Below, piece after piece: positions 1 through 55,163 of a DNA stretch of 64,000 nt (position 1 is its first letter; every line of letters starts with the position of its first letter). The notes under the pieces were generated by a model. That model was not told where the DNA came from and ran no database searches. It was given only the letters and a program-made list of their open reading frames with translations. Origin of the DNA: Listeria ivanovii subsp. londoniensis (GTDB taxonomy: Bacteria > Bacillota > Bacilli > Lactobacillales > Listeriaceae); assembly GCF_000763495.1 (NCBI RefSeq), contig NZ_CP009576.1, positions 568,001 through 632,000 on the forward strand, in the 5' to 3' direction. The position numbers were made by a program, and so were the translations under genes.

Positions 1-1
1 T

Positions 2-88
2 TTTCAAGAGGAATTAATTCAAGCAGCACAATCGATACGAGAGAAAGATATTTCTTTAGGAGATTGGATAGCTCATAATCAGCCATAG
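2..88 (+). CDS. C-terminal end of an unidentified gene (partial)
   Basis: A reading frame enters the window at its left edge and stops with TAG at 86-88. The visible 28 residues are polar and probably helical, ending DWIAHNQP. There is too little to recognise a family. Its stop lies just before the AGGAGGT ribosome site of the gene at 100, so the two are probably co-transcribed. Confidence 0.55.
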   Translation, partial: FQEELIQAAQSIREKDISLGDWIAHNQP

Positions 89-99
89 GAGGTTTATGT

Positions 100-510
100 A
101 TGTATCAAAGTACGTATCAACGAGGCATGGAAATGGCAACAGGCAGTCGTTCTGGTGAATTACTGTATCAAGCAAAACAATTAAGAGAACGGCTCGATAA
201 AGGCGATTTAAGTGACAAAGAACGAAGCAATTTAGTGATGGCAGAAAGAGAGCTTATCCAGCAAGCGCAAAAAATTGATTTAAAGAAAGCCGTCAAAAAA
301 GGCGCTACAAAAATAGAGGATGTACTTGATGAAGAAATGGACCGTGTACAAAAAAATTATCCGACGGTACAAGAAGACCTCCAAGCAGTGCAAGTGACGT
401 TAAAAGACGCCTTTGAATCAGCGACAGGAGATGCGGTATTTACGTGGCTACAAACGACTCGAACAGAAGCGATACAAGCGAGTAGGGAAGCGTTAGAAGC
501 TTCGTGGTAA
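100..510 (+). CDS. Uncharacterised small helical protein
   Basis: 136 residues. The ATG follows a good AGGAGGT site at 88-94 and lies 11 bases after the upstream stop, suggesting an operon. The protein is rich in Glu, Lys, Gln and Ala with no signal peptide, no membrane segment and no cysteine. Most of it should form long amphipathic helices or coiled coil (about residues 15-95), ending in a short Trp-containing tail. I do not recognise the family and assign no function. It is the last intact gene before the rearranged stretch that leads into the CRISPR-Cas locus. Confidence 0.6.
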   Translation: MYQSTYQRGMEMATGSRSGELLYQAKQLRERLDKGDLSDKERSNLVMAERELIQQAQKIDLKKAVKKGATKIEDVLDEEMDRVQKNYPTVQEDLQAVQVTLKDAFESATGDAVFTWLQTTRTEAIQASREALEASW

Positions 511-567
511 GCCAGCACAAGAGATAGAAACGAATTAAATAGGAAGTGTTCACGGTAAAATGGCTGA

Positions 568-648
568 CAGGACGGAGAAGAGGGATTTAAGGAATGGATA
601 CGAGCATACGCTTTACACGCTAATGTTGAACCTTTGATCGAGTTTTAG
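568..648 (+). pseudogene. Possible gene debris
   Basis: The 171-base stretch between the gene ending at 510 and the repeat at 682 has no intact gene. One frame (568-648, ending in TAG) reads as plausible protein containing FKEWIRAYALHANVEPLIEF, but it lacks a start codon and ribosome site and is closed upstream by a stop. It may be the tail of a decayed gene. This is a weak call made from codon and residue composition only. Confidence 0.25.
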
Positions 649-681
649 ACGGCGAGGGGGTTATGTTTTTGCTTGCCAAAT

Positions 682-807
682 AGGCACTGCCACTAAAAAT
701 GAGAATAAAAGAAAAACACTTTCGTTGGATTCATGTAAAATGAAATTAACGAAAGTGTTTTTCCCATCATATCCCACATTTCTGAGCAGACAGTTTATTT
801 TAAAAAA
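682..807. repeat. Left copy (A) of a ~126-bp direct repeat flanking the CRISPR-Cas locus
   Basis: Begins AGGCACTGCCACTAAAAA and ends in a TTATTTTAAAAAA run. The same sequence recurs at 11030-11156. By eye the first ~67 bases differ only by one A in a homopolymer; the right part carries several substitutions. Inside is a perfect 15-bp inverted repeat (712-726 with 748-762, arms AAAAACACTTTCGTT) around a 21-nt loop. That is a terminator-like or transposon-end-like hairpin; copy B has mismatches in the right arm. No transposase gene is attached. It could be a remnant of an insertion sequence or a MITE; the family is not recognised. Confidence 0.85.
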
Positions 808-875
808 GGGCGTGAGGTAAGATGGGAGTTACGATGAAAAGTGGCGGGTTTTAATTTAAATATTGGAATTAATGA
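808..875 (+). other. Leader-like relic upstream of cas6
   Basis: Bases 810-829 (GCGTGAGGTAAGATGGGAGT) are identical to the leader of the functional array at 9424-9443. In the leader this motif is followed after 18 bases by the first repeat (GGTTTTTAAC). Here, 17 bases on, the sequence is GGGTTTTAA followed by AT-rich sequence that no longer matches the repeat. It looks like the decayed leader end of another array or a partial duplication. The rest of the gap up to 1147 is AT-rich with stop-broken frames. One short frame (838 to the TAG at 934-936) reads GINDFGGRDVNILTTTYK but has no start codon. I see no convincing cas promoter. Confidence 0.55.
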
Positions 876-1147
876 TTTTGGTGGTAGAGATGTGAATATT
901 TTGACTACGACTTATAAAACAGCCTTTGAATTCTAGATATTTGTAATAATATTCATGCTTATTTAATATATTTTAAAAAGTAGTAACTAATCAAGCTCTG
1001 AATCACCTTGAGAATAAAAGTGAATTATTTCAATAATATAAATGAGAAATGCCAAGAAATACACTGCTTTTTTAAGGGTTTTATTTTCACTGGATTTAGT
1101 AGTTATTTTATGTTAAATTAAACACAAATAGCGGAGGAGGTGACACG

Positions 1148-1870
1148 ATGAGACTACGAATCAATTGTGATTTTGAATCAAATATAATTCCAAAAGATTA
1201 TCGAAGTAAAATAATCAGTTTATTCAAAACAGGAATTGAGAAAACTGTCCCAGAAAAATATCAAGCTTTTTTTGGAAGTAATCAAAGGAAAAATTATACT
1301 TTTTCAGTATATCTTCCTAAACCTCAAAATAAAAAAATGGAAATTTATTTAGAAGAGAAGAATTGTATCATTAATTTTTCTACTGGAAATGCAGAAACAG
1401 GTGTGATTTTTTATAACGCTTTTATGCAATTAAAGAATAATAAAATACCATTTTCATCTCAAAATAATATCACTATTAAAAGTGTTATCATGGATACGGA
1501 GAAAAAAATCATCGGAGAAAAAACAGTTTTGAAAACGCTTTCTCCTATTATTAGTCGAAATCACCATAAAGATACGTATAAAAATTGGTTTTATAGTTTT
1601 GAAAATGAAGCGTTTGAATCAACTTTAAAAAGAAATATGTCTCCTTTTTTAGAAGAGGAGTTTGGGGTACAAGCTCGTTATGATTTAGAGAAAATGAAAA
1701 TAACGCCAATTTCAATGAAAAAAGTAGTTGTTTATTGCCATGATATACATATTGAAAGTTCGGTAGGCGTATTTGAATTAACAGCAGAACCTTATTTACA
1801 AAAATATTTTCTTCAAAACGGACTCGGTACAATGACGGGATCTGGTTTTGGGATGATAGAGCAGCTTTAG
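1148..1870 (+). CDS. cas6: CRISPR pre-crRNA endoribonuclease Cas6 (type I-B)
   Basis: 240 residues, first gene of the cas operon, with a strong GGAGGAGGTG site six bases before the ATG. The C-terminus carries the glycine-rich loop typical of Cas6 (GLGTMTGSGFGM, residues ~224-235) after a ferredoxin-like fold with the usual SPI(I) segment near 132. Known role of the family: it cuts the repeat in the long CRISPR transcript to release crRNAs and stays with Cascade in type I-B. Many I-B Cas6 proteins use a histidine near residues 38-45. None is present before His139-His140 here, and Tyr38 lies near that spot. Catalysis may therefore use other residues. Confidence 0.93.
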   Translation: MRLRINCDFESNIIPKDYRSKIISLFKTGIEKTVPEKYQAFFGSNQRKNYTFSVYLPKPQNKKMEIYLEEKNCIINFSTGNAETGVIFYNAFMQLKNNKIPFSSQNNITIKSVIMDTEKKIIGEKTVLKTLSPIISRNHHKDTYKNWFYSFENEAFESTLKRNMSPFLEEEFGVQARYDLEKMKITPISMKKVVVYCHDIHIESSVGVFELTAEPYLQKYFLQNGLGTMTGSGFGMIEQL

Positions 1871-1887
1871 AACGGAGGTGGATTTTT

Positions 1888-3562
1888 ATGCAAACAGAGA
1901 TTGAATTAAAAGCGAGTGATTGGCTTGTAAACGCTGGTATAGTTGGTTTTCTTAATATTGTTGGAAAAGAAAACGTGCGGATAGATGGACAGACAATGTA
2001 TTTTTCAACAGATGTTTTGGCAGATTTTGAAACCAACTATTTCAATTATTTTATCAGAGAATACAAAGAAACTTTAGCTTGGCATAAAATTGTTTCATAT
2101 AAAGAGAAGATGGAGTATTACAGGGCGGAAAATTTTGCCTCTTTTGATGAAAAGGCTTTAGAAGATTTGAATAAGTATGTAAAAGATGTAGTGAAATTTT
2201 ATTTAAAAAAATCCAATTATATTAAAGTTTTTCCACTAATAGATCCTAAAGCTAATGTGGAAGAGTGGCTTGGTAATTTATCTCTTATTAAACTATCAAA
2301 AAAACAAATATTGGACGATGGAAAAGTGGAATTGCTTGAGGAAGTAAAAGAAACATACGACCAATTAGACGTTATTATCGATTTTTGTGCTAGCGAGAAA
2401 GGGCTCAAGTATTTAGGCGCAAAAAACCTGATTTATTCTGTGATTAATAATGGTTGGTCAGGTGTATCATTTCTTTATAGACAAACTAAATTTATTGATC
2501 CGTATGAAGACTATAAAACCACATTTTTAGATCCAGTATTCGAATATTTAGAAACAGACTTGTCAAAAGCCAAGTATAATTGTTTCATTTGTAACCAACC
2601 TATTAAAACATTGAAACTAGACCTTAGTTTTATGAATGACGTTGGCTTTGATACTGCAAGAAAAACATCACATGTCTGGGATTTTAATAATGATGTTGTG
2701 ACCTGCCCAATATGTCGTTTAATTTATTCATGTGTTCCAGCAGGATTTACATATGTATACGGGGAAGGCATGTTTGTTAACGATTCTGTTAGTATAGATG
2801 AATTATATGATGTGAATGAACATATGCGTGAATCCATTTTACACTTTAATAATGATGGGATTAATTCGGTTAATCCATATAGGGCGCTAGTGGAATCTAT
2901 TACAATGGAAAAAGAGAAGCAAAGAAGGTTCGATTTAGCAGATATTCAATTAGTTAGATACGAAAATGAACATTACCGGTTTAATTTACTTTCCAAAAAA
3001 ATGCTGCATATTTTAATTGATTCTAAAACAATTTTACAGAGTTTAATAAAATGTGGTTATAAAGAAGGCAATCTGAATATCAATTTATACAAAGAAGTCA
3101 TTCAACATTTAATGAATAATGAAAATTTATTTACACTTATTCATAAGCTGATTTTTTATAAGCAAACAAATGTAAGTGGCTTGTACTACCAAACAGGGCA
3201 TGTTGCAGGAATATTAGAGATAAACACAAAATTTTTGAAGGAGGTAAACGTGCTAATGAGTGAAAAAATTGATTTGGGGAAAATTCAGTTTTTCGGAAAG
3301 TTATTTAAAGAAGGTTATTATAATAAAAAATCAGAAAATAAAATACCGGGAATCACATATAAATTGTTAAATGCTTTAAAAGTAAATGATAAGGATGGGT
3401 TTATGGATACTTTATTAAATAGTTATTCTTATTTAGCTAAACCAATTCCTCGTGATTTTATCGAAGTCTTTTCAAATAAAGAAACTTTTAAGACAATCGG
3501 TTATGCATTCATGTTAGGGGTGAGTGGAAATAGATTAAAACAAGAAGATGGAGGGAATTCAG

Positions 3563-3573
<11 letters not shown>
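1888..3573 (+). CDS. cas8b: Type I-B Cascade large subunit Cas8b1 (Cst1-like)
   Basis: 561 residues; ATG after CGGAGGTGG, 17 bases downstream of cas6. Two zinc-finger-like pairs, CFIC at 232-235 and CPIC at 273-276, are the hallmark of the CXXC-CXXC Cas8b1/Cst1 family. The rest is poorly conserved and mostly helical, as usual for large subunits. Inferred role: recognise the protospacer-adjacent motif, hold the target strand and recruit Cas3. The gene overlaps cas7 by 11 bases, so translation is coupled. The Cst1/Cst2/Cas5t set assigns the system to the Tneap flavour of type I-B. Confidence 0.93.
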
Positions 3574-5198
<1,625 letters not shown>

Positions 5199-5214
5199 TA
5201 AATAAGAAAAGTTA

Positions 5215-5249
5215 CCCCTTGAATTAATTTTTCAAGGGGATTTTTTTTC
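5215..5249 (+). terminator. Terminator-like hairpin between cas5 and cas3
   Basis: Nine-base perfect stem (CCCCTTGAA at 5215-5223, TTCAAGGGG at 5231-5239) with a 7-nt loop, followed by eight T residues. This fits a Rho-independent terminator, yet it lies inside the cas operon, 17 bases after the cas5 stop and 18 before the cas3 ATG. Confidence 0.8.
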
Positions 5250-5267
5250 TAACTAGGAGGTTTCATC

Positions 5268-7478
5268 ATGCAAAAATACTTAGCAAAATCAAATCCCCCC
5301 GAAACAATTCAAGAGCACACCGATAATTTACTAAAAAACTATCAAACCCTTAAAGAACTTTATCCGGAAATCAATGTAGATTGGTACTTATTAGAATTAG
5401 TTTGTTTACTTCATGATTTAGGAAAGATGAATCGGCTTTTTCAAAAGAAGGTGGGGAATGGTTCTGGAGTTGGAAAAGAGATTCCCCACGGCTATTTGTC
5501 AGTTGCGTTTGTTCCTTATAGTAAATTAGAAGATTTAGGGTATTCGGAAGATGAAATAGAAGTAGTTTATCAAGCGATAGCGCGCCATCATGAAAGAAAA
5601 AAAGATTTTACAGAACAAGAATGGGAAAATGAAATTGAAAAATTAGCAGAACAATGGGAAACGTTTTCCTATAAAAGACTAGCTGATAATGCAGATTATA
5701 GTAGCGAAGTAGACCCAATCTATTTTTACCCTGGAGCCCGTATCTTTGAAGATGATGATACTGTTGAAACAGAAAACTTCAAAAATTATGTCCAACTAAA
5801 AGGTCTACTAAACCGAATTGATTTCGCGGCAAGTGCTGGTATTGATGTAGAGCTCGAAAATGATTTCCTGCAAGAATCCATGGAGCACCAATTAGCGAAT
5901 TTTCGAAAAAAGAACGCGGCTGCTGATTGGAATCTATTACAAAAATATATGTTACAACACCAAAATGAAAACGTTATCGTAATTGCTGAAACTGGAATGG
6001 GGAAAACAGAGGCGGGACTACTTTGGCTTGGAAACAATAAAGGCTTTTTTACACTACCTCTACGGACAGCTATTAATGCCATATATACCAGAATTATTGA
6101 TGAGATTGTTACTGACCGACAAGCACAAAGAGTTGGGTTACTTCATTCAGAAACTTATAGCCAATACCTACTACATGAAGAAAACGCAGACATGGAGATT
6201 GATGAATACTATACAAGAACAAGGCAAATGTCTCTACCACTCACTATTTGCACGCTCGATCAGTTGTTTGATTTTGTATTCCGTTATGCTGGATTTGAAC
6301 ATAAATTAGCAACGTTATCATACTCCAAAGTAATTATTGATGAAATTCAAATGTATTCACCAGACTTACTTGCATATTTAATTATTGGGTTATCTTATAT
6401 TGATAAATTTGGCGGTAAATTTTGTATTATGACAGCTACTTTGCCAGGAATTGTATTGGATTTGCTCCATGATAATGAAGTGGATTTTATTCAACCAGAA
6501 GAAAAATTTGTTTCAAAGCGAGTTAGACATAGTGTGGAGATAGTTCATACTGAAATTGATAGTGCTTTTATCGAACCATTTTTTAATGGAAATCGAATTT
6601 TGGTTATTTGTAATACAATAAGTAAAGCGAAAAAAATGTATGCGGAACTAACAAGTAGGTTTCCAAATAAAAAAATCCGTCTAATTCACAGTCAATTTAT
6701 TAAAAAAGATCGCTCCAAAAAGGAAGAAGAAATTTTTGAAGATGGGCAGAAAGCTAATCCAGGAGAATGTATCTGGGTTGCAACACAAGTCGTGGAAGCT
6801 TCTCTTGATATAGATTTTGACTTGCTATTCACAGAGCTATCTGACATTAATGGGCTTTTTCAAAGAATGGGCAGATGTTACAGAAATCGTGCACTTGATG
6901 TGGCTACGAATGTGTATGTGTTTGATGGGGGAGAAAAAGTTTGTTCTGGAGTAGGGCAATTTATTGATAAAACAATTTTTGTGAATTCAAAAGAAGCAAT
7001 AAAGGATTGTAGTGGTATTTTGACTGAGACGAAAAAGATGGCGATAGTTGAACAAATATATTCTACAGAAGCATTAAAAGGAACTGAATTTTATAAAGAA
7101 CTTACTAAAACTTTAAAATATGTCCAGGGTTTTAAGAGTTATGAATTAGATAAAAAAGAAGTTCGTAGCCAATTTAGAAATATAAATTCTGTATCAGCTA
7201 TTCCAGAAAAAGTGTGGCAAGAGAATGAAGATGAAATTGTTAGATGTATGAATATCTTAGGCAAATCATCCGAAGAAGTATCAAAAAAAGAAAAAATGAT
7301 GGCAAGGACTAATCTGGCTGAATTTATGCTAAACATTCCAGATTATCTATATAACAAAAGTGAAGGAAAACCATATAAAATCAACCGTTATGAAAATGTG
7401 GTTGAGTTTAAATGCGACTATTCAGATGAAATAGGGATCAGCATGCTTGAAAAACAAAAAGAAAGTCTGTTCTTTTAG
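5268..7478 (+). CDS. cas3: CRISPR nuclease-helicase Cas3
   Basis: 736 residues with HD nuclease and superfamily-2 helicase in one chain. HD part: His-Asp at 49-50 in LLHDLGKMN, and an HH pair near 109. Helicase part: Walker A TGMGKTE with Lys246, DEIQ box at 358-361, TATLP motif III, and QRMGRCYR motif VI near 530. Known role: it is recruited by target-bound Cascade, nicks the displaced strand and degrades it processively. The ATG has an AGGAGG site. The stop overlaps the ribosome site for cas4. All key motifs are intact, so interference looks functional. Confidence 0.95.
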   Translation: MQKYLAKSNPPETIQEHTDNLLKNYQTLKELYPEINVDWYLLELVCLLHDLGKMNRLFQKKVGNGSGVGKEIPHGYLSVAFVPYSKLEDLGYSEDEIEVVYQAIARHHERKKDFTEQEWENEIEKLAEQWETFSYKRLADNADYSSEVDPIYFYPGARIFEDDDTVETENFKNYVQLKGLLNRIDFAASAGIDVELENDFLQESMEHQLANFRKKNAAADWNLLQKYMLQHQNENVIVIAETGMGKTEAGLLWLGNNKGFFTLPLRTAINAIYTRIIDEIVTDRQAQRVGLLHSETYSQYLLHEENADMEIDEYYTRTRQMSLPLTICTLDQLFDFVFRYAGFEHKLATLSYSKVIIDEIQMYSPDLLAYLIIGLSYIDKFGGKFCIMTATLPGIVLDLLHDNEVDFIQPEEKFVSKRVRHSVEIVHTEIDSAFIEPFFNGNRILVICNTISKAKKMYAELTSRFPNKKIRLIHSQFIKKDRSKKEEEIFEDGQKANPGECIWVATQVVEASLDIDFDLLFTELSDINGLFQRMGRCYRNRALDVATNVYVFDGGEKVCSGVGQFIDKTIFVNSKEAIKDCSGILTETKKMAIVEQIYSTEALKGTEFYKELTKTLKYVQGFKSYELDKKEVRSQFRNINSVSAIPEKVWQENEDEIVRCMNILGKSSEEVSKKEKMMARTNLAEFMLNIPDYLYNKSEGKPYKINRYENVVEFKCDYSDEIGISMLEKQKESLFF

Positions 7479-7495
7479 GAGGTAAGCACGCGAGG

Positions 7496-7978
7496 ATTAG
7501 TGGGACACATGTGTATTATTACTTTGTCTGTAAACGAAAACTTTGGTGTTTTTCTAACGAGATACGAATGGAGCATTTGGATGAAAATGTTCAACTTGGA
7601 AAGCTATTAGACGAAACTAGCTATTCTCGAGAAAATGGCCAAGTAATGATTGATGAAACGGTTAATATTGATTTTATTAAAGATTGGAAAGTTCTGCATG
7701 AGGTGAAAAAAAGCCGAGCAATTGAAGAAGCTGGGATTTGGCAATTGAAGTATTATATGTATTTTTTGAAACAAAAAGGGATTTTTATTGAAAAAGGAGT
7801 GGTTGACTATCCAAAAATAAGACAAAGAGAGACCATTTTCTTGTCAGAGGAAGATGAATTGGAAATAGAAAATGTACTAACAGAAATAGAAAGTATAACA
7901 AAAGATACTAAACCACCAAAAGTAATTGATAAGCCACTTTGCAAAAAATGTGCCTACTATGAGTATTGCTATATTTGA
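7496..7978 (+). CDS. cas4: CRISPR adaptation nuclease Cas4 (non-standard start)
   Basis: RecB-like Fe-S nuclease that trims prespacers. Visible motifs: N-terminal YYYFVCKRKLWC, GKLLDETSY, the acidic/HEVKKS active-site segment, QLKYYMYFLK, and a C-terminal CKKCAYYEYC, giving the usual four cysteines for an iron-sulphur cluster. The conserved N-terminus (RISGTHVYYYF) begins upstream of the GTG at 7511. In that frame there is no ATG, GTG or TTG back to the stop at 7448-7450. The AGGAGGT site at 7477-7483 sits properly for a start near 7490-7496, where the codons are GCG, AGG, ATT. I put the start at ATT 7496; GTG 7511 is the alternative. The length (~155-160 aa) is normal for the family. Confidence 0.8.
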   Translation: MSGTHVYYYFVCKRKLWCFSNEIRMEHLDENVQLGKLLDETSYSRENGQVMIDETVNIDFIKDWKVLHEVKKSRAIEEAGIWQLKYYMYFLKQKGIFIEKGVVDYPKIRQRETIFLSEEDELEIENVLTEIESITKDTKPPKVIDKPLCKKCAYYEYCYI

Positions 7979-7981
7979 GGG

Positions 7982-8980
7982 GTGAGGAAAATAGAAAGCT
8001 ATTATTTATTTTCAGATGGAGAGCTGAAACGTAAAGATAATGTTATTAGGTTAACAGCACCAGATGGAAGGTTTAAGGATTTAAAAGTGGAGATGACTCG
8101 TGAAATTTTCCTTTTTGGAGAGGTAAACATGAATACGAAAGGTTTAAATTATATTGGTCAATTAGGAATTCCTGTTCATATTTTTAATTATTATGGTTTT
8201 TATTCTGGGAGTTATTATCCTAGAGAAACAAATGTGTCAGGACAACTTTTGATAGCTCAAGTTGAGCATTACACCGATGAAAAAAGACGTCTATATATTG
8301 CAAGTGAATTCATAGAAGCAGCTAGTTTTAATTTACTTAGAAACTTAAGATATTACAAACAACGAGGAAAAGATGTATTAGCAGAAATGGATGAAATAAA
8401 ATTTTTACGAAAGTCTATTGGGAAAATGGAAGATATTCAAGCTTTAATGGGAATTGAAGGTAATATTAGAAAAGTTTATTACTCGGCTTGGGAAAAAATT
8501 ATCAATCAAGAAATAGATTTTGAAAAAAGAATAAAACGACCGCCGGATAACATGATTAATACATTAATTTCCTATGTTAATTCTTTGGTTTATTCAAGTT
8601 GCTTAACGGAAATTTATAAAACACAATTAAATCCGGTAATTAGTTATTTGCACAGTGCGGGAGAACGGCGCTTTTCACTATGTCTTGATATTGCGGAGAT
8701 ATTCAAACCATTAATTGCTGATCGAATAATTTTTAGTTTGCTAAATAAAAATGTAATTACGGAAGATGATTTTGAAAAAGAGGCTAATTTTTGTTATATG
8801 AATAAAGCCGCCCGTCAAAAAGTATTACAAGCATATGATTTAAGAATGAAAGAAACAATAAAACATCGTGATTTAGGTCGTAATGTTTCGTACCGACATT
8901 TAATTCGCTTGGAATGTTACAAACTAGTAAAACATTTAATGAACGATAAAGAATATGAAGGATTTAAAATTTGGTGGTGA
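7982..8980 (+). CDS. cas1: CRISPR integrase Cas1
   Basis: 332 residues, GTG start three bases after the cas4 stop with GAGGGG just upstream. The N-terminus, MRKIESYYLFSDGELKRKDN, is a standard Cas1 beta-domain opening. The three metal ligands of the alpha-helical integrase domain are visible: Glu159 in GIEGNIRKVYY, His224 in YLHSAGERRFS and Asp236 in LCLDIAE. With Cas2 it forms the complex that inserts new spacers at the leader end of the array. Placement between cas4 and cas2 is the usual adaptation cassette order. Confidence 0.95.
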   Translation: MRKIESYYLFSDGELKRKDNVIRLTAPDGRFKDLKVEMTREIFLFGEVNMNTKGLNYIGQLGIPVHIFNYYGFYSGSYYPRETNVSGQLLIAQVEHYTDEKRRLYIASEFIEAASFNLLRNLRYYKQRGKDVLAEMDEIKFLRKSIGKMEDIQALMGIEGNIRKVYYSAWEKIINQEIDFEKRIKRPPDNMINTLISYVNSLVYSSCLTEIYKTQLNPVISYLHSAGERRFSLCLDIAEIFKPLIADRIIFSLLNKNVITEDDFEKEANFCYMNKAARQKVLQAYDLRMKETIKHRDLGRNVSYRHLIRLECYKLVKHLMNDKEYEGFKIWW

Positions 8981-8984
8981 GTAT

Positions 8985-9263
8985 ATGTATGTAATTCTAA
9001 TTTATGACATTTCTGTTGAATCTGGTGGTGCTAAAGTTTGGCGCAATGTCTTTAAAATTTGCAAAAGATATTTAACACATGTTCAAAAATCAGTATTTGA
9101 AGGAGAAATAACTCCAGCACTTTTGGTGAAATTACGAATGGAGCTAGATAATTATATTCGTCAGGATGTTGATTCTGTGATTTTATTTTCTAGCAGACAA
9201 CAAAAATGGCTAGAAAAAGAATTTTGGGGATTAGCAGATGAAAAAACATCGAATTTCTTTTAG
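8985..9263 (+). CDS. cas2: CRISPR adaptation protein Cas2
   Basis: 92 residues starting MYVILIYDIS, the standard first beta strand with the conserved Asp. An in-frame upstream TTG at 8955 would give an N-terminal extension inside cas1, so I use the ATG at 8985, which has GGTGGTGAG upstream and lies four bases after the cas1 stop. The ferredoxin-like core has RNVFKICKRYLTHVQKSVFEG; the C-terminal tail should contact Cas1. It is the last gene before the leader. Confidence 0.94.
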   Translation: MYVILIYDISVESGGAKVWRNVFKICKRYLTHVQKSVFEGEITPALLVKLRMELDNYIRQDVDSVILFSSRQQKWLEKEFWGLADEKTSNFF

Positions 9264-9461
9264 CTGGTTTTTTCTGTCGCCCCCTAGTAGTGTGAAAAAC
9301 ACTGGAGGTCGACAGAAACATGAAATGCGTTGGTGGAGAAGCTTTCTCGTATATCTTACTTAGTTAAAATAGGAAAACAAAACTAAATTTCACCTATTTT
9401 TGTATCGGTCGACAAAAATAGGTGCGTGAGGTAAGATGGGAGTAAGGAAAGATTTTGACGG
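9264..9461 (+). promoter_or_regulatory. CRISPR leader with two long inverted repeats
   Basis: The 198 bases between cas2 and the first repeat. Two inverted repeats stand out. One has arms TTTCTGTCG 9271-9279 and CGACAGAAA 9310-9318, enclosing AGTGTGAAAAACACT, itself a small hairpin. The other has perfect 13-bp arms CACCTATTTTTGT 9391-9403 and ACAAAAATAGGTG 9412-9424 with an 8-nt loop. Both right arms share GGTCGACARAAA. The 3' end, from 9424 to the repeat at 9462, includes the 20-mer also found at 810. By position it should hold the array promoter and the Cas1-Cas2 docking site. Confidence 0.8.
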
Positions 9462-11002
9462 GTTTTTAACTACTTATTGTGAAATGTAAATGTTGTTGTT
9501 GCATTCTTTTTAGTTTCATACTCTACTAGGTTTTTAACTACTTATTGTGAAATGTAAATAATTTATCCGCTATCTTGCGGGCTAGGGGCTGATACGTTTT
9601 TAACTACTTATTGTGAAATGTAAATGTTTTTTTGAATGACGAAGTTGAATATAAGCATATGTTTTTAACTACTTATTGTGAAATGTAAATATATTATCAA
9701 TTAACGCCATCACGATGGCAATTATCGTTTTTAACTACTTATTGTGAAATGTAAATAGATGTTTCCTTATTCTTCCACGCTTTTTCTTTCCGTTTTTAAC
9801 TACTTATTGTGAAATGTAAATGAGGCTGAGAGCTTGGCATGACTATTTGGTGACATCGTTTTTAACTACTTATTGTGAAATGTAAATATCATATGCTGGG
9901 TATGGTAGACTTCTCATCAGAGTTTTTAACTACTTATTGTGAAATGTAAATTTCTAACAGCGAACTGCTTAATTGCTTCCTGTTCGTTTTTAACTACTTA
10001 TTGTGAAATGTAAATACATTAGTACTCAGCTTCACTTATTTGAGTTACTTGGTTTTTAACTACTTATTGTGAAATGTAAATGGTATCAACGTTCGATAGA
10101 ATGATTAGATACATTGCGTTTTTAACTACTTATTGTGAAATGTAAATAAGGTATGTCGGATGCCGCACAAGTGATTAACAGTAAGTTTTTAACTACTTAT
10201 TGTGAAATGTAAATCGAGAAATGGGCTAGGTTCATGGAATATTGTAGACAAGGTTTTTAACTACTTATTGTGAAATGTAAATTTTCCTACTGCGCCGCTG
10301 TCACTTCCGCCATGCCCGGTTTTTAACTACTTATTGTGAAATGTAAATACAGCTAATGCTTTTGTAAGCAAGTCTGCATTCCCTGTTTTTAACTACTTAT
10401 TGTGAAATGTAAATTGCTTCTTTTGCGAACTTTCTGATGTATTTTTTTCGTTTTTAACTACTTATTGTGAAATGTAAATCCAATTGGCCTTCTTGTTCAT
10501 TAATTGGAGAATACGGTTTTTAACTACTTATTGTGAAATGTAAATAGCTAATTTGGTACCGGGTTTGTACCATTTAATTTTGTTTTTAACTACTTATTGT
10601 GAAATGTAAATGCCAACCACGTACTTACTCCGGTTTCCATTTTCGGTTTTTAACTACTTATTGTGAAATGTAAATACGAAACCAGCAAGTAAAACAAAAG
10701 AAAAAACAAGTTTTTAACTACTTATTGTGAAATGTAAATTCAGATGAGGAATTAAAACGTGCAGAAAACAGTAGCGTTTTTAACTACTTATTGTGAAATG
10801 TAAATGGAGATTGGTTCCGCAAGTATCGCATTTAGCTTTTGTTTTTAACTACTTATTGTGAAATGTAAATCGCAAAAGCGAGGGCATCAGAATTATTTAA
10901 TTCGAGTTTTTAACTACTTATTGTGAAATGTAAATCAAGGATAATTTGCTATCTATATTCTGTGTATTTTTTGTTTTTAACTACTTATTGTGAAATGTAA
11001 AT
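9462..11002 (+). CRISPR. Type I-B CRISPR array: 24 identical repeats, 23 complete spacers
   Basis: The repeat is 30 nt, GTTTTTAACTACTTATTGTG plus AAATGTAAAT, starting at 9462, 9530, 9596, 9661, 9727, 9792, 9858, 9922, 9986, 10052, 10118, 10185, 10253, 10319, 10385, 10450, 10516, 10582, 10646, 10710, 10776, 10841, 10906 and 10973. Spacers are 34-38 nt. All 24 copies look identical, including the last, which normally would be degenerate. After the last repeat a 27-nt spacer stub (11003-11029) runs straight into repeat copy B. The leader is at the 5' end, next to cas2. The repeat ends with a form of the GAAA(T/N)-type tail common to type I-B. Confidence 0.98.
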
Positions 11003-11029
11003 TCTTACAAGAAAAGGATGAGCGAGAAG

Positions 11030-11156
11030 AGGCACTGCCACTAAAAAATGAGAATAAAAGAAAAACACTTTCGTTGGATTCATGTAAAATGAAATTAACG
11101 GAGGTGTTTTTTCATCATGTCCCACTTTTCTGAGCAGACTGATTTTATTTAAAAAA
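11030..11156. repeat. Right copy (B) of the ~126-bp repeat, truncating the array
   Basis: Partner of the copy at 682-807, in the same orientation. It starts sharply at AGGCACTGCC after 27 nt of an interrupted spacer and ends with the same TTATTTAAAAAA tail. The hairpin arms (AAAAACACTTTCGTT and AACGGAGGTGTTTTT) have drifted relative to copy A. It holds ATGTCCCACTTTTCTGAGCAG, which could be the start of a lost reading frame, but it stops soon after. Confidence 0.85.
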
Positions 11157-11220
11157 TCAGTTTCTCAATAATTAGTGTATTCTCTTTTTTTCGTCCAGCG
11201 AAAACCATTTTCGCAATCTT

Positions 11221-11258
11221 TGAAACCGCTTGCAGTAATGGTTAGCTATACTTATAAT
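11221..11258 (+). promoter_or_regulatory. Promoter with overlapping CcpA (cre) site for the mannoside operon
   Basis: -35 TTGCAG (11230-11235), 17-bp spacer, -10 TATAAT (11253-11258). TGAAACCGCTTGCA at 11221-11234 matches the cre consensus TGWAANCGNTNWCA at 13 of 14 positions and covers the -35. That predicts carbon catabolite repression by blocking polymerase. The ATG of the binding protein lies about 125 bases downstream. No other structure is clear in the leader. Confidence 0.75.
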
Positions 11259-11384
11259 GAACGTAGCAAATCGGCCAAAAAGGAATAAATTTTCAAAATT
11301 AGCTAACTGGAGTAGTAGAAAACGGAAAAGTGGAAATATTTCGTTCTATTTTCATTGAAAACGAACAAAAAGGAGAGCTTAAGA

Positions 11385-12629
11385 ATGAAAAAAATCGTAC
11401 CAATCAGTTGTATTGTTGCAGTTTTAATGCTTCTAGCGAGTTGTGGTAGTGGAGATGCATCCAGTTCAAAAGTGGAGTTTTATACGGATAAGGGCGGAGA
11501 AAATGTAGGTATCTTGAACTCCATGTCAGACCAGATTGAAAAAGATGGGGGCGTTGGTTATAAAACCGTGGGATACACGGAGGTGACATCTTATGAAACA
11601 ACCGTACAACAATCACTTGATAGCGACAAAGCACCAGGATTGTTCACTTGGTGGAGTGGGGATAAATTGAAAAAGCTGGTAGATAACGATTTGGCTGTGG
11701 ACTTAACGAAAGAATGGAAAGATTATTATGAAAAAGAAGGGGTCAACCCAGGGCTCGCGGATGCTTTTACAATAGATGGAAAAGTGTATGCTGCACCGTT
11801 TAGCGTATTATACAACGGGATTATATACAATAAGCATTTATTTGATAAGTATAATTTAGAAGTTCCAAAAACTTGGGATGAATTTATAAAAGTATGCGAT
11901 ACGCTTAAGGCAAATAAAATAGACCCAATTGGGTTAAAAAATGATCCTTGGGCAAGTTTTCTATGGTTTCAAACGCTAATTGCAAGTTATGATCCGGATT
12001 TATATGTGGGACTCACGAATGGTGACATTAAATATACCGACCCTGAAATGAAAAAAGTGATGAAAATCTGGCAAAAAATGATTAAAAAAGGGTACTTTGG
12101 TGATCCAGTAGATCCAGCATCGCAAGCAAAAATGTTTTCAACAGATAAAAGTGCGATGATCTATGAGCCAAGTGTGACATCTGCTACATTGAAAAAAGAA
12201 TACAACATGGAACCAGGCAAAGATTTCGATGTATTTGTTGCTCCATCGATGAAAGCTGATCAAAAACAAGTTATTTTCTTTGAAGCATCTCCAATTGTTG
12301 TTTCTAAGAAGAGTCAACAAAGTACCGATGCAAAAAAAGTACTCCGCAGTTTCTATAAGAAAGATGTACAACAAATTTTCGTTGATGAGGCAGGTATTAT
12401 AAACACAGATAAAACTAAGTCAGATGATCCTGTAAATGGAAGTTTTGTCAAAGAAGCTGGAAATACAGATAAATATCAAGTAATGGTGCGTTACTATGAG
12501 GCTACACCAAGTGAGGTTGTCACAGTTGCAACCGATGAACTATGGAAATTTTTCTACAAACCAACCGATGCAGTGCTGGATGATACCTTGAATACGATTC
12601 AAAAAACTGCGGACAGTGCATTTAACTAA
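11385..12629 (+). CDS. Sugar ABC transporter substrate-binding lipoprotein
   Basis: 414 residues. ATG 11385 follows AAGGAGAG; an upstream in-frame TTG at 11355 has no ribosome site. A short signal peptide ends in the lipobox LLASC, so the cysteine is lipid-anchored on the outer face of the membrane. The body is a family-1-type extracellular solute-binding fold (AAPFSVLYNGIIYNKHLFDKY region near 130 and PKTWDEFIKVCDTL), as in oligosaccharide binders. It is the first gene of the operon and precedes two permeases and alpha-mannosidases, so I infer that it binds an alpha-mannose-containing oligosaccharide. The exact ligand cannot be read from sequence. Confidence 0.88.
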   Translation: MKKIVPISCIVAVLMLLASCGSGDASSSKVEFYTDKGGENVGILNSMSDQIEKDGGVGYKTVGYTEVTSYETTVQQSLDSDKAPGLFTWWSGDKLKKLVDNDLAVDLTKEWKDYYEKEGVNPGLADAFTIDGKVYAAPFSVLYNGIIYNKHLFDKYNLEVPKTWDEFIKVCDTLKANKIDPIGLKNDPWASFLWFQTLIASYDPDLYVGLTNGDIKYTDPEMKKVMKIWQKMIKKGYFGDPVDPASQAKMFSTDKSAMIYEPSVTSATLKKEYNMEPGKDFDVFVAPSMKADQKQVIFFEASPIVVSKKSQQSTDAKKVLRSFYKKDVQQIFVDEAGIINTDKTKSDDPVNGSFVKEAGNTDKYQVMVRYYEATPSEVVTVATDELWKFFYKPTDAVLDDTLNTIQKTADSAFN

Positions 12630-54964: not shown

Positions 54965-55080
54965 GTAATTATCCCATAGAGATTGTTGTTTGAAATAATT
55001 TAATTAAAGATAAATCACTTCCCCCGTAGAAATGTTTTTAATTATTTTATGACAAATAAACACTCCTTAAAAGATAATTG

Positions 55081-55163
55081 TAGCACAGAATTTCCCAGGT
55101 TCTGTGCTATAATTATGTATAGAATAATGAGAAGAGAGCTTATTTCTAAATAGCTTTTTTTTA
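55081..55163 (+). promoter_or_regulatory. Structured corA 5' leader (candidate attenuator)
   Basis: A perfect 10-bp hairpin (TAGCACAGAA 55081-55090, TTCTGTGCTA 55100-55109) is followed by an imperfect stem around AGCTTATTTCTAAATAGCT ending in a T-run at about 55155-55163, right before the ribosome site. The second stem has the form of a terminator. Together they could regulate corA by transcription attenuation. No known magnesium riboswitch pattern is recognisable by eye. Confidence 0.4.

Follow-up and report, generated by a model that had tools for sequence, protein, structure and literature searches.

Direct repeats around a type I-B CRISPR-Cas locus of Listeria ivanovii: probable scars of a plasmid-derived unit

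In Listeria ivanovii subsp. londoniensis, the genes of a type I-B CRISPR (clustered regularly interspaced short palindromic repeats)-Cas system and one of its arrays lie between two copies of a 126-bp direct repeat, which raises the question of whether such a bracket marks the borders of a mobile immunity module or has some other origin. We examined it in a window of 64,000 nucleotides (assembly GCF_000763495.1, contig NZ_CP009576.1, positions 568,001 to 632,000 of the forward strand), whose own genome, G000, was compared with a set of one genome per species. Probably the two copies are not the borders of a mobile cas package but scars that a plasmid-derived unit left at the tails of two arrays. 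The order in G000 is array1, plasmid module, 5′ copy, cas genes, array2 and 3′ copy, with each copy on the tail side of an array. A preliminary description of this DNA had reported near-identical copies in the same orientation flanking cas genes and array, and so they are: both lie on the + strand (682-807 and 11031-11156, 126 bp each), and the second matches the repeat query at 91% identity across 125 of 128 query bases (E 6.5e-44), the longest run identical between both copies being 57 nt. The 5′ copy is separated from the cas6 open reading frame (ORF) by 340 bp, and the 3′ copy begins 28 bp after the final array2 repeat, the spacers of array2 being otherwise 34-38 nt long. The features of the bracket are as follows.

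682..807, + strand: 5′ bracket copy, 126 bp (repeat finding, genome search and alignment).
683..762, + strand: ISLmo1-like left terminus with hairpin, assigned by sequence match; no right end found.
763..807, + strand: outer leader segment D of the 5′ copy, assigned by similarity to G024 locus M.
805..856, + strand: inner CRISPR leader P and repeat start, assigned by sequence comparison.
11031..11156, + strand: 3′ bracket copy, with the insertion sequence left terminus at 11031-11111 and outer leader segment D at 11112-11156.
11131..11167, + strand: palindrome, a terminator-like hairpin (-15.3 kcal/mol, z -5.6) whose right arm is missing from the 5′ copy.

The two parts of the repeat appear to have different sources. 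The first ~80 bp are, as judged by sequence match, the left terminus of an ISLmo1-like insertion sequence (IS) of the IS3 family. Element positions 1-82 and 4-82 are matched by window positions 680-760 and 11031-11109, and the two copies differ in this part by two mismatches and a one-base gap, their remaining differences falling within the last ~45 bp. Plasmid pGMI16-004 carries this terminus in front of a transposase whose annotation is ISLmo1 family, and genome G007 holds a 1264-bp match to this plasmid's ISLmo1-like element. In the intact element a hairpin stands directly before the transposase start, and the same hairpin is kept in the bracket copies (-27.2 kcal/mol, z -7.6, and -24.5 kcal/mol, z -6.2). 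The copies thus have in common with ISLmo1 the left terminus and the pre-transposase hairpin, at ~89-98% identity to Listeria plasmid copies, but differ in carrying neither transposase nor right end and in being fused to leader-like DNA. The left edges, which had been described as sharp, are sharp because they coincide with the transposon terminus.

Such a structure invites comparison with a miniature inverted-repeat transposable element (MITE), and the inner hairpin had been taken to suggest a MITE or an IS remnant. If the 126 bp were a MITE-like ISLmo1 derivative that transposed independently to both sides, the exact IS terminus at both left edges would be explained, and internally deleted elements do exist in G000, where three places (L021, L022 and L024) retain both IS ends around deleted interiors; at a fourth (L023) the left part alone is matched. 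However, neither the right terminus nor the transposase ORFs of the ISLmo1-like element were found at either bracket copy. Alignments that would place a right end there were no better than shuffles: in the 3′ copy, the score was reached by 786 of 2000 shuffles for the IS right end and by 225 of 2000 for the inverted left end, and in the 5′ copy by 174 and 491 of 2000. The copies therefore lack one of the two terminal repeats of a MITE. In addition, the right part of the repeat occurs in genome G024 with no adjoining IS end, and no more full-length copies were seen among the best-ranked candidates scored in 25 genomes of the genus. The hairpin and the IS remnant stand, and a MITE origin is unlikely.

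The last ~45 bp are not IS DNA and look like the outer portion of a CRISPR leader, a component that the preliminary description, correct as to the IS remnant, had missed. Positions 772-804 resemble the DNA upstream of a solitary leader-repeat in G024, at a site that we call locus M, and when the outer-leader similarity between G024 and each bracket copy was compared with mononucleotide shuffles, none of 2000 reached the score. Immediately to the right of the 5′ copy come inner leader P and then the first 9-10 nt of a T-type CRISPR repeat (GTTTTAATT); to the right of the 3′ copy, a second palindrome arm takes the place of the inner leader. That the outer leader segment might be native to locus M was considered and rejected, as inspection by eye showed no such segment at the matching sites in G000, G003 and G021.

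Copy number bears on whether the repeat is tied to the cas locus or belongs to a generic terminator family; as had been proposed, it is linked to the cas locus and is no generic terminator family. The full-length repeat occurs in G000 at the two bracket places only, and its first ~80 bp at four others; the search scored no more than 14 first-look candidates in any one genome (14 of 37 in G000), and counts of partial copies are lower bounds. Among the candidates scored, no third full-length copy was found in G000, in 24 other genomes of the genus or in 35 further relatives. Some match to the repeat was present in 9 of 60 genomes: the first ~80 bp, whole or partial, recur in G007, G010 and G024, and weaker matches lie in G015, G028, G049, G051 and G055. 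The 3′ tail of the bracket (11108-11190) identified the two bracket places only at E <0.001 in the 25 genus genomes, the next best match having E 0.009. By simple arithmetic, two randomly placed copies would fall within 10.35 kb of each other in 3.045 Mb with a chance of ~0.7%. When viral contigs were scanned with exact patterns, the outer leader segment and the IS terminus each gave 0 matches, and phage records yielded short matches to the IS terminus alone, in 5 records.

Two neighbouring copies could also have arisen if a duplication or gene conversion within the locus made one out of the other, with no plasmid unit involved and with the hairpins persisting as terminators around cas. Strong hairpins in both copies, and the second, terminator-like hairpin in the 3′ copy, are in keeping with this origin. 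We nevertheless find it doubtful, since it leaves both the leader DNA within the repeat and the permuted order in G024 (described below) unexplained, and a terminator scan of 1-11400 listed none of the bracket hairpins under its loop and stem limits.

The cas operon is older than the bracket, because the closest relative, G003, has array1, cas genes and array2 in the same place and lacks both bracket copies, and because a full-length repeat match is present in 0 of the 9 other genus genomes with an extended cas8b match. A cas8b match was obtained in 11 of the 25 genomes, namely G000, these nine and, as a short fragment, G024; one of the genomes, G015, has a single weak 47-bp match to the repeat, far from its cas8b. 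Protein identities between G000 and G003 are 97% for cas1, 95% for cas5, 94% for cas4, 93% for cas7, 88% for cas3, 84% for cas8b and 78% for cas6, and the neighbouring genes that were matched are 91-100% identical except for three at 71, 80 and 82%. No copy of the repeat was found in G021 or G009, which keep the flanking sugar-transport gene and have no cas8b match (the G009 contig starts 1.3 kb before the gene), or in G020, which keeps that gene and has cas8b on another contig.

These comparisons speak to the proposal, made in the preliminary description, that the whole type I-B module came in, or is able to leave, when the direct copies recombine with each other. Their shared orientation, the 57-nt identical core and the position of cas and array2 between them count in its favour. 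However, a mobile cas module should be absent where its repeats are absent, and G003 has the module, with a cas1 that is 97% identical, at the same locus without the repeats; the full-length repeat is likewise missing from all nine other genomes with an extended cas8b match, and G021, in which no cas8b match was found, has no copy either. A perfect run of 57 nt is, moreover, a short substrate for RecA. Arrival through the copies is thus contradicted, and module mobility as a whole seems very unlikely; excision of cas, or its occasional deletion through the copies, is possible but unsupported.

Two side observations concern these relatives. G021 carries a ten-repeat array with no recognisable leader (L051:10502-11116) beside the sugar-transport operon, in a genome in which no cas8b was found. 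In G024, which has no full cas8b match, an 86-aa (amino acid) ORF on contig C13 (L104:4246-4506) resembles the C-terminal part of Cas8b, with 40% identity over residues 482-548 (E 1.2e-5); it is located among small genes and could be a Cas fragment borne by a mobile element.

The DNA on the outer side of the 5′ copy points to a plasmid. Array1, with 33 repeats, lies just left of the window (G000:563867-565964), and between it and the 5′ copy are a rep remnant, a DUF1433 gene, a lipase-like gene and a 136-aa gene; array1 and this module occupy the space from the last conserved left gene to the 5′ copy. The DNA directly after array1 aligns with an intact rep gene at a score reached by 0 of 500 shuffles. 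A rolling-circle plasmid would be expected to have an HUH initiator and to be circular. The G000 copy is a remnant only (E 2.6e-4), and the intact Rep of G024 matches PF23343 and has relatives on 86 plasmid records, all at <60% identity, 8 of which cover at least 80% of the query. A 5979-bp contig of G016 with a 77-bp end overlap (L129) carries Rep, DUF1433-like, lipase-like and 136-aa genes, a likeness judged by reading; by the same means a 5598-bp contig with no end overlap (L130) has the same gene set, and a 5142-bp contig of G020 with a 127-bp end overlap (L131) combines the same Rep type with other cargo.

Of the cargo proteins, the lipase-like one scores 20.6 bits against Pfam Lipase_3, below the cut-off of 22, and has no PDB sequence match, and the 136-aa gene has no Pfam match. 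PMC10730906 describes a lipase toxin and its immunity lipoprotein, which also occur in Listeria; because the immunity family there is DUF576 and not DUF1433, we claim no membership in that system for the module genes. The rep remnant was also considered as a captured spacer and rejected, as the bases preceding the matching place in intact rep differ, by eye, from the CCA motif given in the accessible passages of PMC3886909. Among 126 spacers from nine array stretches, no full-length match to the module, to plasmids or to the IS was found. The best spacer match, from array2 of G003 (L050), agrees at 19 of 20 nt with the DUF1433-gene region of the module and is possibly a partial plasmid match.

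The same module occurs in G024 in a permuted arrangement. The junction between array1 repeat and rep remnant is identical over 47 nt in G000 and G024, and G024 holds further module copies besides the one at this junction. Its contigs C4 and C1 end on either side of one site (locus M), which adjoins MMPL- and TetR-like genes (names from reading) and is module-free in G000, G003 and G021. C1 carries in order the outer leader, the inner leader, one intact repeat, the start of the rep remnant, and module copies that include one open Rep gene; C4 carries the module end, 63 nt of the IS left end, and flank. The IS end and the outer leader, fused in G000, are therefore apart in G024, as would result if a circle or tandem array had been opened at different points, and the G000 opening is located at the CRISPR repeat. 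Following the solitary repeat at locus M, 12 of 14 nt agree with the array1 junction, whereas 1 of 251,254 control positions was as good. Repeat position 8 is C throughout array1 (33/33 in G000 and 2/2 in G024) and T at two places, the solitary G024 repeat and the repeat start to the right of the 5′ copy, which is the split expected if a unit with a T-type repeat crossed over inside a C-type repeat. The G024 stub is 84-85% identical to the RliB-type leaders of G003, G021 and G000, and 85% identical to its counterpart at the G000 5′ copy.

Direct observation covers what the copies are made of, which junctions the two genomes share, that the copies are younger than cas, that the order is permuted in G024, and which repeat type stands on either side; the following history would connect these facts. 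A small rolling-circle plasmid with lipase-like and DUF1433 genes may have received an ISLmo1-like insertion and become fused to a CRISPR leader-repeat stub. This would give a unit U of ~2.9 kb, with the order repeat, truncated rep, DUF1433 gene, lipase-like gene, 136-aa gene, IS left end, outer leader, inner leader and repeat, which presumably took the form of a circle or of units in tandem. Entry of U into array1 would most likely have occurred by homologous recombination of its own repeat with an array repeat. The product, placed beside cas, would be an array1 repeat joined to the rep remnant, then the module and the IS end, the latter joined to leader and repeat start. The 3′ copy might stem from U entering a second time, at the array2 tail, with the module deleted afterwards; alternatively, it may have moved from array1 to array2 by exchange through their shared repeats, again with loss of the module. 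It might also have transposed from the left copy.

Several observations weigh against an origin of the copies from a plasmid unit. The remainder of array1 was not found beyond the 5′ copy, 867-1015 aligning with the array1 tail of G003 at a score that 412 of 1000 shuffles reach. The right-hand repeat is recognisable for its first 9-10 nt only: for the continuation past the first 8-9 nt, 1272 of 2000 shuffles reach the score, and for the whole 34-nt repeat stretch, first nucleotides included, 96 of 2000 do so. The repeat-type argument consists of one informative base. Within the mismatch limits applied, the three plasmid-like contigs showed neither a CRISPR repeat nor a leader nor an IS end, and no free circle bearing a stub was seen; in G002 the module lies away from any CRISPR repeat (10 kb examined). 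The 28 nt before the 3′ copy have no significant match to module or plasmids. Finally, G024 is a draft in which contigs break within the module, and C4 and C1 do not overlap, leaving the middle of locus M unseen. 

Just right of the 3′ copy, a comparison with the array2 tail of G003 gave a score that 830 of 1000 shuffles reach. Both arrays of G000 terminate in perfect repeats and those of G003 trail, by eye, into degenerate ones, as if old array tails had been lost in G000.

A more far-reaching possibility is that the leader and the solitary repeat carried by the plasmid-derived element serve it for docking or as an RNA decoy, and that the element may interfere with the type I-B system as an RNA anti-CRISPR. 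We offer this as a tentative and rather improbable reading; if true, the element enters arrays by repeat recombination and severs them from their tails. Virus-borne mini-CRISPR arrays reportedly also place a CRISPR repeat on a mobile element, but here there is a single repeat and no spacer. According to PMC10651486, solitary repeats, often downstream of predicted promoters, act as RNA anti-CRISPRs. Locus M of G024, a candidate unit of this kind, is like them in consisting of one leader and one intact repeat, without cas genes, in a mobile-looking unit; it differs in being plasmid-derived rather than viral, and the repeat is broken in G000.

The bracketed locus itself, with its surroundings, consists of the following features.

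1..681, + strand: right end of the decayed, putatively rolling-circle plasmid module, with the 3′ end of the lipase-like gene, the 136-aa gene (100-510) and plasmid non-coding DNA.
G000:563867-568000, left of the window: remainder of the module and CRISPR array1.
857..1015, + strand: remnant, overlapped by a 27-codon reading frame (853-933) with no match in 24 genus genomes.
1148..9263, + strand: type I-B cas operon, with Pfam matches above cut-off for all eight genes.
1148-1870, + strand: cas6 (Pfam).
1888-3573, + strand: cas8b (Pfam, Cas_CXXC_CXXC).
3548-4432, + strand: cas7 (Pfam, DevR/Csa2 family).
4389-5198, + strand: cas5 (Pfam).
5268-7478, + strand: cas3 (Pfam).
7511-7978, + strand: cas4 (Pfam).
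7982-8980, + strand: cas1 (Pfam).
8955-9263, + strand: cas2 ORF (Pfam).
9270..9461, + strand: array2 leader (leader comparison).
9462..11002, + strand: CRISPR array2, with 24 identical 30-nt repeats and 23 complete spacers.
11186..12629, + strand: conserved right flank, comprising a promoter region and a sugar-binding-protein-like gene (named from reading), present in G021, G009 and G020 and, over 50 bp, in G003.

Genes for cas6, cas8b, cas7, cas5, cas3, cas4, cas1 and cas2 thus form one cluster beside an array, a gene content that we take to indicate subtype I-B; the numbers in cas8b and cas7 are those that we presume to go with the matched Pfam families. All 24 repeats of array2 have an extra T and are 30 nt long, and all 33 of array1 are 29 nt (window 9462-11002; L025:3868-5965). 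An Rfam match to the Listeria small RNA rli31 lies at 54977-55093 of the window, and the rliB family matches three array2 stretches. The RliB-type array of G000 (L073:12651) is reduced to a leader and a single recognisable repeat, the same locus having 5, 6 and 11 repeats in G021, G003 and G024.

A histidine-phosphatase gene stands to the left of array1, and lmo0517 is, we assume, a gene of that kind. In the passages of PMC3886909 available to us, lmo0517 is the left border, and RliB-CRISPR and CRISPR-I are placed between fixed core genes, with homologous leaders and a CCA motif; the CRISPR loci of L. monocytogenes are described in the corresponding part of PMC3556495. The present locus has its repeat family and leader motif in common with Listeria CRISPR-I (type I-B) and RliB-CRISPR as given in those passages of PMC3886909, and differs from them in an additional array1 with a plasmid insertion and in IS-end scars at both array tails. 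The passages of the two papers mention no repeat bracket. Strict literature searches returned no paper on a direct-repeat-bracketed cas operon, which is weak evidence of absence.

Repeats that give the impression of bordering a mobile immunity module can thus turn out to be scars of insertion. Small plasmids with a leader-repeat stub may, in turn, be able to land by homology at CRISPR repeats. Were such events general, they would provide a route for the loss of old array tails and for the formation of orphan arrays and solitary repeats.

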